This document shows, piece after piece, positions 1-55,880 of a stretch of 64,000 bases of DNA. Each line of letters starts with the position of its first letter. The first letter of the stretch is position 1. Location: positions 620,001 to 684,000 of the forward strand of contig NZ_JNYV01000003.1 in assembly GCF_000717275.1 (NCBI RefSeq). The letters are read 5' to 3'. The notes under the pieces were generated by a model. It had not been told where the DNA came from. It ran no database searches and saw only the letters and a list, made by a program, of their open reading frames with translations. This DNA is from Kitasatospora arboriphila. Its GTDB lineage: Bacteria > Actinomycetota > Actinomycetes > Mycobacteriales > Mycobacteriaceae. A program made the translations under genes and the position numbers.

Positions 1-641
1 AGCCTGCCCCGAACACTGAAACCTTCGGCCAGTCCTCGGTTGTCGGATTTGGGGACCAGGCGCAACACCGACTGGCCGGCCAGAGCACGACGCAGCGCGA
101 GCGCATTGGACGTCATCGATTCGAGCTCGCCGGGCGCGGCAAGGATCAGCGCGGACTGCCGGACCTCCGCGGCGGCGGGAAGCACGGCAGAACTGGTCGG
201 TGCCGGGTAGAGGGCAGCGAGTGCCTTGGCCTTGCTGCTCCGTGACGCGGCCAACGTCGCGGCCGATGCGCCGAAGCCATGACCGGCGACCGCCAGACGC
301 TGTTTGTGCACGGTGATGTCGCCGGCACCGAGGCGGACCTCGGTGATGATCGACAGGGTGGTCTCGAGATCTGCGGCCAGTCCCTGATCGGAACCGAGCA
401 TGCCCTTCTCGGTGGTGGGCGCCGCGGCGACGATGCCCCAGGAGGCCAGATGCGCGAGGGTCTTGTTGTACTGCTTGGCGCCCGTGAGCCAGCCATGACC
501 GAACGCCACCCCGGGCAGGTCCTTCCCACCGACGGGCGCGTAGACGGTGCCCGGCAATCCGACAATCGCCATATCGCCGCGCAAGACCTTGTGCGGTCCC
601 GTCTTGGACAGCTGCGAGAGAAGCTTCTTGGGGTTGGCCAC
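1..641 (-). CDS. alpha/beta-hydrolase fold protein, dienelactone-hydrolase/PAF-acetylhydrolase-like, 3' part outside window
   Basis: About 213 residues are visible; the C-terminus lies beyond the window edge. The start is a GTG at 641, because a TAG in the same frame lies four codons upstream and no ATG fits. The protein begins VANPKKLLSQLSK and shows the fold's early strand and oxyanion region (GVAFGHGWL near residue 45). The nucleophile elbow, usually GxSxG, reads GHGFG, so the serine is replaced by glycine, and the usual chemistry would need another residue. No signal peptide is visible. It is divergent from the AlaRS-like gene across 122 bases, which contain an inverted repeat (CGCGCCGA-T-TCGGCGCG, 715-731) that may be an operator. 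Substrate unknown. Its place beside the lipid-alanylation genes may be meaningful or accidental. Confidence 0.7.
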   Translation of the reverse strand, partial: MANPKKLLSQLSKTGPHKVLRGDMAIVGLPGTVYAPVGGKDLPGVAFGHGWLTGAKQYNKTLAHLASWGIVAAAPTTEKGMLGSDQGLAADLETTLSIITEVRLGAGDITVHKQRLAVAGHGFGASAATLAASRSSKAKALAALYPAPTSSAVLPAAAEVRQSALILAAPGELESMTSNALALRRALAGQSVLRLVPKSDNRGLAEGFSVRGR

Positions 642-763: not shown

Positions 764-2176
764 ATGGATGCCAATGAAATCCGCAGCGCCTACCTCTCGC
801 TGATGCAGGAGCGCGGCCACGCCCTCATCAACAGGGCCCCGCTGGTGCCGAAGGACGACCCCACCACACTCTTCACCGGCAGCGGGATGCAGCCGTTGCT
901 GAGATATCTGCTGGGCGCCGAACATCCGGACGGCAACCGGCTCGCCGACTCGCAGACCTGCCTTCGGTCCCAGGATATCGAGGAAGTCGGCGACAACCGG
1001 CACACCACCTTTTTCGAGATGCTCGGCAACTGGAGCTTGGGCGATTACTTCAAGTCCGAACAGATCCCGCTGTTCTGGCATTTCCTGACCGAGATCGTCG
1101 GACTTGATCCGAACAGGATCTACGTGACGGTGTTCTCGGGAGACCCCGAACACGGCATCCCCCGCGACGATGAGAGCGCGGACATCTGGACCGAGTTGTT
1201 CACCAAGGCCGGTGTCTCGTCGGACAGAGTGGTTCTGCTGACCGAAGAACAGGGCAACGAGCAAGGAAACCAGGGCGCGCGGATCGCGTATTACAGCGAC
1301 AAGAACTGGTGGTCGCGGTCCGGTGGTCCGGACACGATGCCCGTCGGCGACCCCGGCGGACCGGACAGCGAGGTCTTCTACTACTTCCCACAGGTGGAGC
1401 ACGACACGGCTTTCGGCAAGTACCCGCATCAGAACTCCGATGGCGGTCAGTACATGGAGATCGGTAACTCGGTGTTCATGCAGTACTGCAAGACCGATGA
1501 CGGGTTTGCGCTGCTTCCCAAGCAGAACGTCGACTACGGCGGCGGTCTCGAGCGGATCGCCGCGGCATCCATCGACAGTCCCGATGTATACCGCATCAGC
1601 CTCCTCTGGCCGATCGTCCAGAAGATCGAGGAGCTCTCGGGTGTGAGCTACGACGACAACACGGTCGCGATGCGAGTGATCGCCGACCACATCCGCGGTG
1701 CGGTGTTCCTTGCGGTGGACGGTGTGGTGCCGTCGAACAAGGAACAGGGCTATGTGATGCGACGGCTCGTCCGGCGGGCAATCCGTTTCGCCCATCAACT
1801 CGGTGTTCAACAGAACCTGCTGACGGAGTTGGTCCCGGTTGTCGCCGGTCTGTACGCCGAGGCCTACCCGGAGGTGGCCGATCGGCGCGACGTGGTGATC
1901 GCCGTGCTCGAGAAGGAGGAACGGGCCTTCCGGCGCACCCTCGGCAAGGGCTTGCGAGAGTTGAAGCGACTGGGCAAGACCGGTGACACCGTCAACGGCG
2001 ACGACCTCTTCAAGCTCTACGACACATTCGGATTCCCGGTGGAGCTGTCCACCGAAGAGGCCGTCAACCGAGAGCTGCCGCTGACCGAGAACTGGCGAGC
2101 AGAGTTCGATGCTGCCATCGAGGTGCAGCGGCAGCGGTCGCAGGCCTCGACCAAACTCGGTGCCGGAACCGCCTGA
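764..2176 (+). CDS. free-standing alanyl-tRNA synthetase catalytic core (AlaRS paralogue without editing domain)
   Basis: 470 residues, matching the aminoacylation plus acceptor-recognition part of AlaRS (E. coli AlaRS is about 876 residues; its N-terminal 461-residue fragment is active). Motif 2 is HTTFFEMLGNWSLGDYFK (80-97) and motif 3 is VDYGGGLER (256-264), with the alanine-amino-binding Asp at 257 and an NWW tryptophan near 182. Asn325 (in PSNKEQGY) and Asp420 (in LYDTFGFP) align with E. coli Asn303 and Asp400, which read the G3-U70 pair of tRNA-Ala. The usual GPCGPC segment is replaced by a GDPGGPDSE variant. The protein ends where the editing (HxxxH...CxxxH) and C-Ala domains would follow, so it should charge RNA but not proofread. 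It converges on the aminoacyl-lipid synthase gene. Inferred role: charging an acceptor RNA for lipid alanylation, probably the tRNA-like element at 5972-6027. A housekeeping alaS is not in this window. Confidence 0.9.
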   Translation: MDANEIRSAYLSLMQERGHALINRAPLVPKDDPTTLFTGSGMQPLLRYLLGAEHPDGNRLADSQTCLRSQDIEEVGDNRHTTFFEMLGNWSLGDYFKSEQIPLFWHFLTEIVGLDPNRIYVTVFSGDPEHGIPRDDESADIWTELFTKAGVSSDRVVLLTEEQGNEQGNQGARIAYYSDKNWWSRSGGPDTMPVGDPGGPDSEVFYYFPQVEHDTAFGKYPHQNSDGGQYMEIGNSVFMQYCKTDDGFALLPKQNVDYGGGLERIAAASIDSPDVYRISLLWPIVQKIEELSGVSYDDNTVAMRVIADHIRGAVFLAVDGVVPSNKEQGYVMRRLVRRAIRFAHQLGVQQNLLTELVPVVAGLYAEAYPEVADRRDVVIAVLEKEERAFRRTLGKGLRELKRLGKTGDTVNGDDLFKLYDTFGFPVELSTEEAVNRELPLTENWRAEFDAAIEVQRQRSQASTKLGAGTA

Positions 2177-2195
2177 CCCAACCGATCTGCTGGTC

Positions 2196-2225
2196 AGCCC
2201 CGTCGGTGTATCCACCGACGGGGCT
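2196..2225. terminator. bidirectional hairpin terminator between convergent genes
   Basis: A perfect 13-bp inverted repeat, AGCCCCGTCGGTG / CACCGACGGGGCT with a 4-base loop TATC, lies between the ends of the AlaRS-like gene and the aminoacyl-lipid synthase gene. There is no long U tract, which is common for actinobacterial terminators. It could serve both converging transcripts. Confidence 0.75.
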
Positions 2226-2264
2226 TGCCTCTATTCGCTCGTGCCCTTACTCCCTTGTCCGGCC

Positions 2265-4394
2265 TTACTCCCTTGTAGTGGCCAGCTTCAGCATCTGACC
2301 CGGGGTGGCGTTGGGCAGATACGCCCTGGTGAGCGCCAGTCCGATCCGTGGCAGATCACCTTCATCGCGGAAGCACATGTACACCGGCTCGTATCGCGGC
2401 TGGAACTTCATCTTGAATGCGTGCAAGGAGCGGAAACCGTAGAACGGTTCCATTGCTGCTCCCAGCATGTCCAGCAGGCGATCCATGGCTTCCACCTCGC
2501 CGGTGTCGTCGGCGGCACGGGCGAGCGGAGCGCCCGAGAGTGAGAGGATCTGCGCGCCTTCGGCTTTGAAAGCCAACGCAGAGCTCGCGATGAGGAACTC
2601 GATGACCGGGCGGAAACCGTCGTCGCGCCGGCGCATCACGTCGAGCGTCCAGCCCCTCACCTGATCATCTCCACCGAACACCGGCAGCCACGACAAGACT
2701 CCGTGCACCGAACCCGTCTCGTCAATGGCAAGGGCCACGCGGACTTCCGGGTCGAGGGCCTCCTCGACGCTGCCGAGGGTGAAACCCATTTCCGGCAGGC
2801 CCTTGTCGCCGACCCATTCCTCGGAGATCGCCCGCACCTGGGCGAGCACGGCGAACGGCTCGTCCTTCAGTGTTGTCAATCTGAAGTTGATGCCTTCCTT
2901 CTTCGCCCTGTTGATCGCTGATCGGATGTCCTGCCACGGTTTGCCTTTGAAGGCCAGTGTGGGCAGGTCGATGATGGTGTCCTCGGCGATCTGCAAAGTG
3001 CGCCAGCCCATCTCGCGGGCGATCTCGGCCGTTGCCTCACTGACAGAGAACCAGCACGGGATGCGTGCGCTGCTCTCGGCCATGTCGGTGAACTCGCGGA
3101 TCGTCTCGGCCAGTTTCTCCGGGGCGCAGACGGGGTCCGCGAGGGCGATGACGGTGCCGGCCGGTCGCTGGTAGCCGATCACGCCTTCGCCGTCCTTGGT
3201 GAACGCGTACTGATTGTTCTCCCAGGTGATCATCCAGCTCATGGTGCTGCCTCCATATTTCTTGAGGAGGCTGCGTACCTGTTCGGCCGGATTGGATCCG
3301 CCCATACCCGCCATGGCTTTCCGGCTGCGCAGCGGGACGTTGAACGCGTACCGCCCGGCGAACAGCAACGACAGTTCGACGATCCACAACAGACCGGTGC
3401 CAACCGTGACCGCGCCCTGACCCTTGAAGTCGGAGGTGATCACCGCGACCAACACGAAGACGAGCAGGGCGACGTACAAGAGCCCGTAGATCACGGTGAT
3501 CCACCACGCCCAGCGCCGCCCGCGCCGCAACTGGTCGGCGATCAGCAGCACGATCAGAACACTGACGATCGACCCCCAGCTGAGGCTGTCGTCGGAATCG
3601 GTGGGACCGAAGGGCCCGTCGCCGGGGAACACGGCGACGGCGATGTTGACGATCCCGATGAGGACCAGGCCGAGGAAACTGATCATCCGGATCTCTTGCC
3701 GCGTTCGCGGCATCACACCGGATTCACCTCGACTGAAGAACTTTTCGCCGACCACGAGCATCACCACTGCGGCGATGAGGTGGGTGACGTCATGCAGCGA
3801 GCCCTCGAACAGAAAAGAAACGGCAACGTAGGCAAGGAGAATCGCCCGCACCCGCAGTCGCCACGGCGAGCGGAGTCTGGCACTTGCCGCGGCCACGGCA
3901 GCAACGATGGCGGTGGAATGGCCCACGTCCTGGACGTCGGCGAGATGGTCGACCCATTCCCAGCTGGTCGGCCGGAACACTGCGATGAACGCGACGGCGC
4001 CCAGCTCGCCGATCAGTTGCCCCGCAATGGTGACAACGGCGACCCTGACCGTGCCCAGCAACCACTCGCACCACCCGACAACAACGGCGAAGATGACGAT
4101 GAGTGCGATGTAGTGGGCAGGTGTCAGCCCGAACAGGGTGCCCGACAACGGAGTCCACCACTTACCGTCGGTGAGCGGGGGATAGCCATAGGCGACATCA
4201 CCGAACCAGGACCGGTTCTCCACCGTCTCCCACAACGCTCCGGTGACGATGCCGAGAACGATCGTCACCGCGACCACGGTCGAGGTGAAGGGAACCTTGC
4301 GGATGGTCCAGGCCACCGAACCGAGCACCTTGTCGGCCCGCGATGATGTCGGTTCGGCGGGGGGTGCCTCGGCAGTGGTGTCGGTCGTGCTCAT
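2265..4394 (-). CDS. membrane aminoacyl-lipid synthase, MprF/DUF2156 type (probable alanyl-diacylglycerol/alanyl-PG synthase)
   Basis: 709 residues. The N-terminal half (about 33-350) is membrane-embedded with roughly 8 helices. The C-terminal half (about 370-700) is the cytosolic DUF2156 transferase domain that moves an amino acid from aminoacyl-tRNA to a lipid. The membrane part resembles a rhomboid fold: GKWW near 77, GHST at 158-161 in the position of GxSG, and a conserved-looking His205 in HDVTHL. The esterase gene lies upstream on the same strand, 112 bases away. In Corynebacterium glutamicum a homologous synthase makes alanyl-diacylglycerol alone and alanyl-phosphatidylglycerol together with an esterase encoded upstream, so alanine is the best guess. 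Lysine cannot be excluded from sequence. The last codons carry a 14-base direct repeat (CCTTACTCCCTTGT at 2245 and 2263). Confidence 0.85.
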   Translation of the reverse strand: MSTTDTTAEAPPAEPTSSRADKVLGSVAWTIRKVPFTSTVVAVTIVLGIVTGALWETVENRSWFGDVAYGYPPLTDGKWWTPLSGTLFGLTPAHYIALIVIFAVVVGWCEWLLGTVRVAVVTIAGQLIGELGAVAFIAVFRPTSWEWVDHLADVQDVGHSTAIVAAVAAASARLRSPWRLRVRAILLAYVAVSFLFEGSLHDVTHLIAAVVMLVVGEKFFSRGESGVMPRTRQEIRMISFLGLVLIGIVNIAVAVFPGDGPFGPTDSDDSLSWGSIVSVLIVLLIADQLRRGRRWAWWITVIYGLLYVALLVFVLVAVITSDFKGQGAVTVGTGLLWIVELSLLFAGRYAFNVPLRSRKAMAGMGGSNPAEQVRSLLKKYGGSTMSWMITWENNQYAFTKDGEGVIGYQRPAGTVIALADPVCAPEKLAETIREFTDMAESSARIPCWFSVSEATAEIAREMGWRTLQIAEDTIIDLPTLAFKGKPWQDIRSAINRAKKEGINFRLTTLKDEPFAVLAQVRAISEEWVGDKGLPEMGFTLGSVEEALDPEVRVALAIDETGSVHGVLSWLPVFGGDDQVRGWTLDVMRRRDDGFRPVIEFLIASSALAFKAEGAQILSLSGAPLARAADDTGEVEAMDRLLDMLGAAMEPFYGFRSLHAFKMKFQPRYEPVYMCFRDEGDLPRIGLALTRAYLPNATPGQMLKLATTRE

Positions 4395-4506
4395 CGGCGC
4401 CTTTCGAGTTGTGGAGCCGGTCGCGCCGGCCGAACGGACGGGCCCGTACCCGCCGCTCGTGGTCGAGATGTTGCAGAGTCGCTATCGGATGGGATTATTC
4501 CCTAGA

Positions 4507-5793
4507 TCACGGCAATCCCAGGCGCTTACCGAGCCATGGCATCTCCAATTTCAAGCCTGCCGACCAGACGGCGAACGAATGTCCACCCGGGACGATGTTG
4601 AAATGGACGTCCATCCCGGCAGCCTGTGCGGCTTGGTAGACCTGCTGCAGACCGGGCCGGTATTCCGCATCGTCCTTACCCACGACAAAGGCACCGGCCA
4701 CCTGGGGGTACTTCTTCGACTTCATCAGGTCCATCGGGTTGACCGCGGTGAACTTGGCCGCGTCGCCGCCGAATGCCTGGTCGATGGTTCGTTTGCGGTC
4801 ACCGAGGGTGGGCTCGAGTTGACCCGACATGTCCAGGAACGTCGGATACACCTCTGGGTGGTTGGTGGTCATCTGCAACGCGCAGGTACCGCCGTACGAC
4901 AACCCGCCGATAGCCCATCCCGACGGGTCGGTCTCGACCTGCAAGGTGTTCTTCACCCAGGTGGGCACGTCCACCGACAGGTAGGTCGAGACGTTGCCGA
5001 GGTTGGAATCCATGCACAGTGGATTGGCGAGTTCGTCGCCGGTGGCATCGGCGACCACCACAACGGGCGACAGTCCCTCGTTGGCGGCAGCGTACTGATC
5101 CATCGTCTGTGTCAACCGGCCGCCGACGAGCCAGTCTTCCGGCGACCCAGGTTGGCCGGCCATCAGCACCAGTACCGGTAGCAACGGACGGGGTTCGGCG
5201 AAGTAGGCGGGTGGTAGATAGACCTTGGCCGGCCGGGCGGTGAACTTCGAGACCTCACCCGGGATGGACGAGGTGATCACACCGCCCTGCGACGGCAGGC
5301 CCGCGGGCTTGCGCCACTTGTCCACCTCCACGGTCTTGATGTCGGTGCTGCGGGCCTCGTCGATGGACACCGTCCTGACGTTGTTGATCCCGAAGACGGA
5401 GCCAACGGTCGGGTATTCGTCGAAGTGGTCATTGATCTGGGCGAGAGCCATCACCACCGCGAACACCGTCGCGAAGACCGTGATGATCCGGGCGGCCACC
5501 CCCCGGCCACGGATGAGCCTCGGAATGAACAGCAGCAGTGCGAACACCGCTGCGCCGCCCCACATGTAGTTGGACGCCGGGATGGGGTCCGAGAACAGTT
5601 TCCAGACGTCCTCGATGAGCCATTTCGACACGAAGACCAGGAGGAGGCTGACGACCGCAGCGATTGGTACGACAGCAAGAAGGTAGGTCTTCTGAGGCAG
5701 CAGGATCAGCCACAACAGCCCCAGGGCGCCGAGTAGGAGGATGGCCCACGGCAATGGTCCGTCGAGCACCGATATGTCCCACAGCCAGTCCAT
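4507..5793 (-). CDS. membrane-anchored esterase, partner of the aminoacyl-lipid synthase
   Basis: 428 residues from the ATG at 5793, chosen because AAGGA lies 5 bases upstream; an in-frame ATG at 5835 would add 14 residues. Four membrane helices (about 16-32, 37-56, 78-92, 101-119) precede an extracytoplasmic alpha/beta-hydrolase domain of the esterase D/antigen-85 superfamily. The nucleophile elbow is GGLSYGG (Ser about 299), the acid is in VVGKDDAEY (about 375) and the histidine in PGGHSF (about 405). It lies directly upstream of the MprF-like gene on the same strand. In C. glutamicum the equivalent esterase is needed to make alanyl-PG in addition to alanyl-DAG, so this enzyme may transfer or remodel the alanyl group rather than only hydrolyse it. 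A trehalose mycolyltransferase-like role is less likely because of the multi-helix anchor and the neighbours. Confidence 0.85.
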   Translation of the reverse strand: MDWLWDISVLDGPLPWAILLLGALGLLWLILLPQKTYLLAVVPIAAVVSLLLVFVSKWLIEDVWKLFSDPIPASNYMWGGAAVFALLLFIPRLIRGRGVAARIITVFATVFAVVMALAQINDHFDEYPTVGSVFGINNVRTVSIDEARSTDIKTVEVDKWRKPAGLPSQGGVITSSIPGEVSKFTARPAKVYLPPAYFAEPRPLLPVLVLMAGQPGSPEDWLVGGRLTQTMDQYAAANEGLSPVVVVADATGDELANPLCMDSNLGNVSTYLSVDVPTWVKNTLQVETDPSGWAIGGLSYGGTCALQMTTNHPEVYPTFLDMSGQLEPTLGDRKRTIDQAFGGDAAKFTAVNPMDLMKSKKYPQVAGAFVVGKDDAEYRPGLQQVYQAAQAAGMDVHFNIVPGGHSFAVWSAGLKLEMPWLGKRLGLP

Positions 5794-5971
5794 GTACGTC
5801 CTTCGGGAGGATGGACCCAAAAGTGGAGCCCGCATCGAAACCTACAGCGAAATGCGAGGTATCACGTGTGTACGGACCAAAAAAGAGTGTTTGCAGATCG
5901 AACCGTGACCAGAGGGGATCGCTACAGGATTTTCACGTGGAACGCGGTAGAGAAGTGGGGGGTGACCCCGG

Positions 5972-6027
5972 TGGTGGAGGACATACGGATCGAACGTATC
6001 AAAGGCGTCCCAACCGACGCATCCCCC
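5972..6027 (-). ncRNA. tRNA-like RNA without anticodon arm, alanine identity (G3-U70), encoded CCA
   Basis: Read on the minus strand from 6027. The 5' acceptor strand GGGGGAU (6027-6021) pairs with GUCCUCC (5982-5976): G1-C72, G2-C71, G3-U70, G4-C69, G5-C68, A6-U67, U7-G66. Next is a 5-bp hairpin GCGUC / GACGC with loop GGUUGG (6020-6005), like a D-arm. After the linker CUUUG comes a perfect T-arm: stem AUACG / CGUAU with the 7-base loop UUCGAUC (5999-5983), including the standard G53-C61 closing pair. Discriminator A73 is at 5975 and CCA at 5974-5972. There is no anticodon arm, so it cannot decode. G3-U70 and A73 are the classic alanine identity elements and are enough for AlaRS to charge minihelices. 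It is about 180 bases upstream of the esterase/synthase pair, on the same strand. Function is inferred: alanyl donor for lipid modification. Confidence 0.8.
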
Positions 6028-6071
6028 TCGACTCCTTGAGCTTGACGCTCGAGAACTGCAAGAGTTCGCAC

Positions 6072-6101
6072 AGCGTAACCCATAACTTCACCTGTTGTCA
6101 G
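6072..6101 (-). promoter_or_regulatory. predicted promoter of the tRNA-like RNA
   Basis: On the minus strand, CTGACA (6101-6096) and TACGCT (6077-6072) form -35 and -10 boxes with an 18-base spacer. Transcription would start near 6065, about 38 bases before the acceptor stem, leaving a leader for RNase P. The leader holds two small hairpins (GAACT-CTTGC-AGTTC and GAGC-GTCAA-GCTC). A run of six T on the minus strand (5884-5879) downstream could end a short transcript; otherwise transcription may continue into the esterase gene. Confidence 0.5.
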
Positions 6102-55749: not shown

Positions 55750-55768
55750 GGGTCCGACCTTCGGACCC
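55750..55768 (-). promoter_or_regulatory. hairpin in the metY leader (SAM-IV expression platform)
   Basis: GGGTCCGA and TCGGACCC pair around a 3-base loop, between the riboswitch and the metY ribosome site. Without a U tract it is more likely to act on translation or with Rho than as a classical terminator. Confidence 0.5.
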
Positions 55769-55789
55769 GCGCTTGCCGCGGCGAAAAAC

Positions 55790-55880
55790 CGCTGGCCTGG
55801 TCATCACCCGGAGCACCCCACCGCGGTTGGAGGGTTGCCGATCAGCGAGCCGGGGCTTGTCGCTGATACTCATGACCTGG
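55790..55880 (-). promoter_or_regulatory. SAM-IV riboswitch
   Basis: On the minus strand the leader reads GGTCATGAG, then CAGCGACAAGCCCCGGCTCG with CTGATCGGCAACCCTCC, the GCGGTGGGGTGCTCCGGGTG stretch and closing GATGACC. GGTCATGAG and the final GATGACC pair as P1. This is the typical actinobacterial SAM-IV aptamer. High SAM should switch off metY-metX. Just upstream, TTATAT near 55893 is a likely -10 region. Confidence 0.88.

Follow-up and report, generated by a model that had tools for sequence, protein, structure and literature searches.

Can a bacterium supply alanine to its membrane lipids through a synthetase and an acceptor RNA that are kept apart from protein synthesis? The question is raised by a stretch of 64,000 nucleotides from the 5.75 Mb genome of Kitasatospora arboriphila (contig NZ_JNYV01000003.1, positions 620,001 to 684,000), hereafter called the window, in which an earlier note had placed four parts within 5.4 kb: a core of alanyl-tRNA synthetase (AlaRS), an MprF-type synthase, an esterase and a transfer RNA (tRNA)-like RNA with alanine identity. 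Pfam matches and a strict RNA scan located all four parts where they had been placed. We propose that the AlaRS core charges this RNA in a private pairing, from which the neighboring predicted MprF-type enzyme would obtain alanine for membrane lipids, and we put the probability of this reading at roughly two in three. The argument is carried by the conservation of the RNA and by the co-occurrence of core, RNA and synthase across genomes.

A conserved, predicted small RNA without an anticodon arm

The predicted RNA gene lies on the minus strand at positions 5972-6027 (read from 6027 to 5972; 56 nt), between glmS and the esterase gene. The 7 bp acceptor stem is formed by the 5' strand GGGGGAT (6021-6027) and the 3' strand GTCCTCC (5976-5982) and contains a G3:U70 pair (G3 at 6025, U70 at 5978) that is found in all 18 distinct copies of the RNA collected below. 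Pairs 1-6 are invariant in the same 18 copies, leaving pair 7 as the only variable position of the stem. An arm GCGT CGGTTGGG ACGC with a nearly invariant GG in its loop (6005-6020) comes next, followed without any intervening anticodon arm by a variable-loop-like linker CTTTG (6000-6004), a T arm ATACG TTCGATC CGTAT with the loop TTCGATC (5983-5999) and, beyond the 3' strand of the acceptor stem, discriminator A73 with an encoded CCA (ACCA, 5972-5975); the first arm, the linker and the 3' end are read from alignment A3. A73 is present in 20 of 20 copies and the encoded CCA in 15. The RNA is predicted to be contiguous, 54-56 nt long, with a paired first arm. The anticodon arm is absent from all 20, so that the set of acceptor, D, anticodon and T arms that makes a canonical tRNA is incomplete. 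The first arm is probably a D-like arm and not a shortened anticodon arm, because its loop carries GG and it is succeeded directly by the linker and the T arm. ARAGORN predicts no tRNA anywhere in the window and neither a tRNA nor a transfer-messenger RNA (tmRNA) at any of the 20 RNA loci, and Rfam returns no match at the window RNA even at E ≤ 10 and none at gathering cut-offs in 18 of the loci. Over these same loci the RNA has neither the tag reading frame nor the model match of a tmRNA.

Taken by itself, the window stretch 5966-6026, which omits the first G, folds no better than its shuffles, and the cloverleaf lies 5.7 kcal/mol above the minimum free energy of the 56-mer. Relatives were sought for this reason and the proof is a comparative one. 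The strict scan matches the window, Williamsia soli and two Pseudonocardia loci whose T stem shows compensation, and a pattern scan across the 298 genomes of the order yielded two matches, the window and a genome in which RNA and core are unlinked (G066). Covariance models raised the tally to 20 copies, 18 of them distinct, in 19 actinobacterial genomes; the window RNA, which is among the seeds of model R1, matches it with E = 2.8e-14. Over 18 distinct copies and 16 pairs, pairing holds in 99.7% of the 288 alignment cells, as opposed to only 41-63% in slid registers. Double changes occupy 34 cells compared with a shuffled mean of 11.8, and none of 500 shuffles reaches this number. They affect six of the 16 pairs, three of four in the D-like arm and three of five in the T arm, compared with 4.1 pairs in shuffles, 5 of 500 of which reach six. 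Further pair types show no excess (11 compared with 10.9 in shuffles). RNAalifold, unprompted, gives the identical 16 pairs.

The flanks of most copies carry transcription-like signals. A promoter-like motif TTGnnn-16..19-TAnnnT is found at most 60 nt upstream of 13 of the 20 copies and at 10 of 4000 random places, a figure that is descriptive because the motif was chosen once the flanks had been seen. Terminator-like stems of at least 10 bp lie just downstream of 13 of the 20 copies compared with 9.5% of 1500 places. The two Williamsia copies beside glmS show neither signal in strict form, and the window copy has no strict promoter or terminator. In Williamsia soli a further contig carries another copy of the RNA (L087, 1501-1556), which differs from the first by one base.

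Several other candidates and roles were rejected. Weak covariance-model matches elsewhere are ordinary tRNAs according to ARAGORN in 34 of 35 loci (9/9 and 25/26), the sole exception among those checked being a 45-nt match at L281 with E = 0.95, and the second-best model match in the window genome is an ordinary tRNA as well. The RNA was not found at E < 0.001 in genomes of Saccharibacteria and other Patescibacteria, and plasmids and phages gave no match. In viral contigs, the pattern GGGGGATGCN{25,40}TCCTCCACC found 17 stretches, 10 of which gave 11 matches to model R1 at E ≤ 1 (best 1.2e-4 and 0.001, the rest at least 0.012); the four that were viewed all lack the TTCRA T loop and the CCA end, and these four were judged to be due to chance. 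A role as glmS leader was set aside, the RNA being on the opposite strand and glmS not being found in the fetched loci outside Williamsia.

The AlaRS core and its neighbors

The AlaRS core (764-2176, plus strand, 470 aa) matches PF01411 with E = 4e-109 and 366 bits over model positions 1-433 of 552 and contains no other Pfam family. Residues 4-461 align with 3hxu (chain residues 5-437), the 441-residue catalytic fragment of E. coli AlaRS, and the core aligns in two stretches with the Aquifex-type fragment 1riq. It is a class IIc AlaRS with the class II catalytic core over its full length, comprising the catalytic and acceptor-recognition part. N325 and D420 align with E. coli N303 and D400, the readers of G3:U70, and each is kept in 24 of 25 cores. 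The protein ends after the catalytic fragment, without editing and C-Ala domains, and its scores against TIGR00344 and NF002436 are below the cut-offs. The 25 cores measure 446-478 aa (starts picked by script) compared with 561-660 aa for Saccharibacteria AlaRS proteins, and the two Saccharibacteria-type relatives that were scanned (L007, L008) have a tRNA_SAD editing domain. Loss of the editing domain would suit work other than translation. In addition to the core, the window genome encodes a full-length AlaRS within an open frame of 893 aa.

In a tree of 63 AlaRS rows, where rows labeled CPR include a few that are not Patescibacteria, the cores sit inside the Saccharibacteria AlaRS (fork 100/100), far from the AlaRS of their hosts. 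Saccharibacteria are bacteria that live on actinobacteria. One group holds 22 cores (100/99), and the Subtercola, Brachybacterium and Brevibacterium cores fall within another Saccharibacteria group (98/96). Constraining the 25 cores to one clade is rejected with p-AU 0.00014, the group having been named after the tree was seen, and the tree supports derivation of the core from a Saccharibacteria-type AlaRS more than once. Those of the best 120 relatives of the core that have an NCBI name are in most cases called 'alanine--tRNA ligase-related protein' or 'alanyl-tRNA synthetase'. The closest named relative by core is that of Williamsia soli (91%), whose MprF is 86% identical over residues 22-709. 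AlaRS relatives also occur in 56 plasmid records, all below 60% identity; the annotated ones among the 20 listed are named alaS or alanine--tRNA ligase, and plasmids of Bacteroides (25.7 kb) and Acidithiobacillus (22 kb) are among those with alaS-like sequence.

The gene next to the core encodes a predicted MprF/DUF2156-type aminoacyl-tRNA:lipid transferase (2265-4394, minus strand, 709 aa; PF09924 E = 3e-76). PF09924 (LPG_synthase_C) spans residues 374-675 with 256.6 bits and is preceded by nine hydrophobic stretches within residues 36-346, the multi-pass membrane part and synthase domain expected of MprF/aaPGS (DUF2156) enzymes. It is not a LysX-type fusion, as synthetase and transferase are separate genes and the protein scores 144.6 against a LysX cut-off of 742. 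A true LysX is encoded elsewhere in the genome (1123 aa, 1636.6 bits against the same cut-off). Because lysine has this separate enzyme, the window MprF is, by elimination, probably of the alanine type. In two genomes (G051 and G122; L234, L243) the MprF homolog found less than 5 kb from the core is a second, more divergent one and not of the full-length type.

PesT is an esterase, and the third protein resembles it by family and place: a membrane esterase (4507-5835, minus strand, 442 aa) with a hydrophobic N-terminal part, a PF00756 alpha/beta hydrolase domain at residues 202-432 (E = 2e-17) in which residue 311 marks a GLSYG motif, and a gene that adjoins the MprF-type gene. The earlier note had counted the esterase among the parts of the module, which is not supported in that form. 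It occurs with the set in seven of the fetched loci, to which this count is confined (G000, G298, G301, G302, G136, G188, G609), and is accessory. RNA, esterase and MprF genes all lie on the minus strand with gaps of 136 bp and 112 bp and could share one transcript. Far from this locus, the window contains a SAM-IV riboswitch at 55764-55877 on the minus strand (Rfam RF00634, 108.9 bits).

Distribution across genomes and competing explanations

We surveyed 298 genomes of the order using cut-offs of E ≤ 1e-100 for the core, E ≤ 1e-3 for the RNA and E ≤ 1e-180 for full-length MprF, the last set at a gap above the next match of 5.7e-119, and 335 genomes of the class for core and RNA. The large RNA surveys used stricter filters with 17-19 candidates scored per genome and may have missed weak copies. 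Ten genomes of the order have the RNA, all of them among the 12 with a core (Fisher p = 5e-17), and full-length MprF is found in 30, consisting of 12/12 core genomes and 18 of the 286 others (p = 1e-13). The genomes being related, these p values are only a guide. This nesting of RNA (10) within core (12) within MprF (30) upholds the earlier claim that the three belong together. The distribution that was named in advance as contradicting it, a core or RNA widespread without the synthase, is absent from the order, where the synthase accompanies every core and 10/10 RNAs. In the class survey RNA and core each occur in seven genomes, five of which have both. Linkage does not account for the association, since six of the 10 RNA genomes of the order (G051, G059, G066, G080, G087, G122) have the RNA either on another contig than the core or separated from it by at least 0.6 Mb. 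The two are also on different contigs in Subtercola (G311), whose core belongs to a separate branch and yet is accompanied by both RNA and MprF. Wherever MprF was searched for genome-wide in RNA genomes it was found at full length (14/14, G320 and G588 not among them), and it is also present at the G609 locus. The co-occurrence survey suggested by the earlier note therefore supports the nesting of core, RNA and MprF, and also contains exceptions: a core without MprF in two genomes, a core without detected RNA in eight and an RNA without a core in two.

From these parts a mechanism can be proposed. The RNA is predicted to be a small transcript with an acceptor stem, a D-like arm and a T arm; in most relatives its transcription would begin at a promoter-like motif and end at a terminator-like stem that belong to the RNA gene itself. 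The AlaRS core would read G3:U70 and charge the RNA with alanine, a reaction for which the C-Ala domain should be unneeded, as should editing outside translation. The resulting Ala-RNA would be unable to decode because it has no anticodon arm, which would keep its alanine out of protein. The MprF-type enzyme may then move the alanine to diacylglycerol or phosphatidylglycerol. Acceptance of a minihelix would follow precedent, an MprF having been described to accept minihelix-Ala (PMC4052509), and minihelix charging with alanine appears among the references of PMC9976931. Where present, the esterase may move or remove the alanyl group. As to origin, the tree points to acquisition of the core from a Saccharibacteria-type AlaRS on more than one occasion. 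On balance we lean towards a code-free supply line, in which Saccharibacteria AlaRS would have been taken up repeatedly, cut down to a minihelix-charging core and paired with a new class of free-standing tRNA lacking the anticodon arm, such that lipid alanine would never compete with the ribosome.

Several observations, together with the poor fold of the window RNA and the missing signals in its flanks, weigh against the private charging pair. No RNA was detected in eight genomes with a core (G042, G135, G428, G600, two Rhodococcus, Brachybacterium and Brevibacterium), and the four of the large surveys still gave none when searched again at 150 candidates each; G135 is 88% complete in 400 contigs, and in G042 and G600 the core still adjoins an MprF. 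Brachybacterium and Brevibacterium have no MprF either. Two genomes, G320 and G588, have the RNA and a full-length AlaRS only. Neither core nor RNA is carried by 18 of the 30 genomes of the order with full-length MprF, so that the synthase can do without both. Corynebacterium glutamicum is reported to make alanyl lipids (alanyl-diacylglycerol, Ala-DAG) with AlaDAGS (PMC10580965).

The alternative that survives best, although it is unlikely, retains core and RNA as a private pair and assigns the alanine to another aminoacyl-RNA-dependent enzyme, such as a Fem-like or GNAT transferase, with the proximity to MprF being partly coincidence. In eight of 19 RNA genomes (G000, G298, G301, G302, G136, G188, G051, G609) no more than 10 kb separate the RNA from a full-length MprF, and in G051 it lies about 100 nt downstream of the MprF. 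Of the six unlinked genomes of the order, five have no full-length MprF near the RNA. In G320 and G588, of one family, it lies near a GlnR-type regulator (L260 at about 9531, L261 at about 9356), in the former also beside a GNAT gene, which would favor another user. The neighborhoods offer no recurrent candidate for this role: the unlinked RNA loci share no neighboring family, and in a comparison of 13 RNA loci, apart from cores and the syntenic pair G320/G588, neighbors match in three weak pairs with 34-38% identity. The presence of full-length MprF in every core and RNA genome of the order compared with 18/286 others also argues for MprF as the user.

We consider it improbable that the core is a general stand-by AlaRS for ordinary tRNA(Ala), serving under stress, metal starvation or an AlaRS inhibitor, with the RNA as its decoy or regulator. 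This idea draws on genomes without detected RNA, in which the core can serve another use. The two Rhodococcus cores (L002 7905-9293, L003 10001-11398) lie beside cobN (PF02514) in an apparent cobalamin cluster, which also counts against the charging pair; a cobalamin riboswitch suspected from the sequence before the Rhodococcus core gave no Rfam match at the gathering cut-off. In Brachybacterium and Brevibacterium (L016 8418-9803, L017 6564-7955) the core is near the gene for the ribonucleotide reductase small chain (PF00268), with a flavin mononucleotide (FMN) reductase gene in between in Brachybacterium. A stand-by synthetase fits poorly with a core that lacks the editing domain seen in its two scanned Saccharibacteria-type relatives, a decoy would have no need of the universal A73 and the frequent encoded CCA, and neither explains the link to MprF.

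It is very improbable that full-length AlaRS charges the RNA in all genomes and the core has some other task. Any canonical AlaRS should be able to read G3:U70, and because G320 and G588 carry the RNA with only a full-length AlaRS, the RNA is probably chargeable by the normal enzyme. This would leave unexplained why a core is found in 10/10 RNA genomes of the order and 5/7 of the class, and why core and RNA are only 73-189 bp apart in seven of 17 genomes with both, including 114-124 bp in three further class genomes from two families (G506, G580, G609). For the private alanine channel of the earlier note, the dedicated parts stand, while a strictly closed channel does not, as an RNA with G3:U70 should be readable by full-length AlaRS too. 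That the RNA is without function, a relic or fragment left by a tRNA or by the tRNA-like domain of tmRNA, which it resembles in alanine identity, T arm and missing anticodon, is barely credible in view of its compensatory changes, near-invariant acceptor stem, promoter-like motifs and terminator-like stems and the negative ARAGORN and Rfam searches.

Comparison with known systems

In the literature searched, with subscription papers outside its scope, we found no prior description of the RNA or of the core/RNA pair. Synthetase paralogs that specifically serve MprF-type ligases have been described as a theme (PMC2922099). As far as could be seen, a dedicated MprF synthetase is already known and a free-standing tRNA without an anticodon arm that has its own synthetase is apparently new. 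If the proposed charging pair is correct, a private RNA that does not decode would be a direct genetic answer to how MprF-type enzymes draw aminoacyl-tRNA away from EF-Tu and the ribosome, which a 2023 review (PMC9976931) regards as an open question, and deletion of a 56-bp gene would make this question testable. It would also provide a natural free-standing tRNA without an anticodon arm and possibly an orthogonal acyl-donor pair. Core and RNA would then be the living counterpart of the minihelix/AlaRS-fragment pair, which has been used in arguments on the origin of the genetic code.

The closest parallel in design is LysX of mycobacteria and corynebacteria, an MprF fused to lysyl-tRNA synthetase (LysRS), in which a dedicated synthetase paralog likewise feeds an MprF-type transferase (PMC10580965, PMC2922099). 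The LysX synthetase is part of a fusion protein and works, so far as has been described, with ordinary tRNA(Lys), whereas here the AlaRS core is separate and has its own small RNA. C. glutamicum AlaDAGS/PesT similarly combines an MprF-type alanyl-diacylglycerol synthase with an associated pesT, a likeness by family and place; the available portion of PMC10580965 describes no private synthetase or RNA, has pesT deleted together with the AlaDAGS gene in the strain used and gives the role of Ala-DAG as unknown. The tRNA-like domain of tmRNA is also alanylated via G3:U70 and has a T arm and no anticodon arm. In contrast, the RNA described here is contiguous, with a paired D-like arm and with neither tag frame nor pseudoknots. 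Laboratory minihelix-Ala with AlaRS catalytic fragments (the 3hxu and 1riq constructs) consists of the same elements, an acceptor-T helix and a catalytic fragment, but is engineered, whereas core and RNA are a natural gene pair. Metazoan mitochondrial tRNAs are naturally shortened as well; there it is the D or T arm that is lost and the tRNAs take part in translation, whereas here D-like and T arms are kept and the anticodon arm is absent. Non-proteinogenic staphylococcal tRNAs keep the cloverleaf. These tRNAs, and VlmL of the VlmL/VlmA system, show that a tRNA or a synthetase paralog can be reserved for non-ribosomal transfer (PMC2922099, PMC9976931); in those cases one of the two partners, synthetase or tRNA, is special, whereas here both are.

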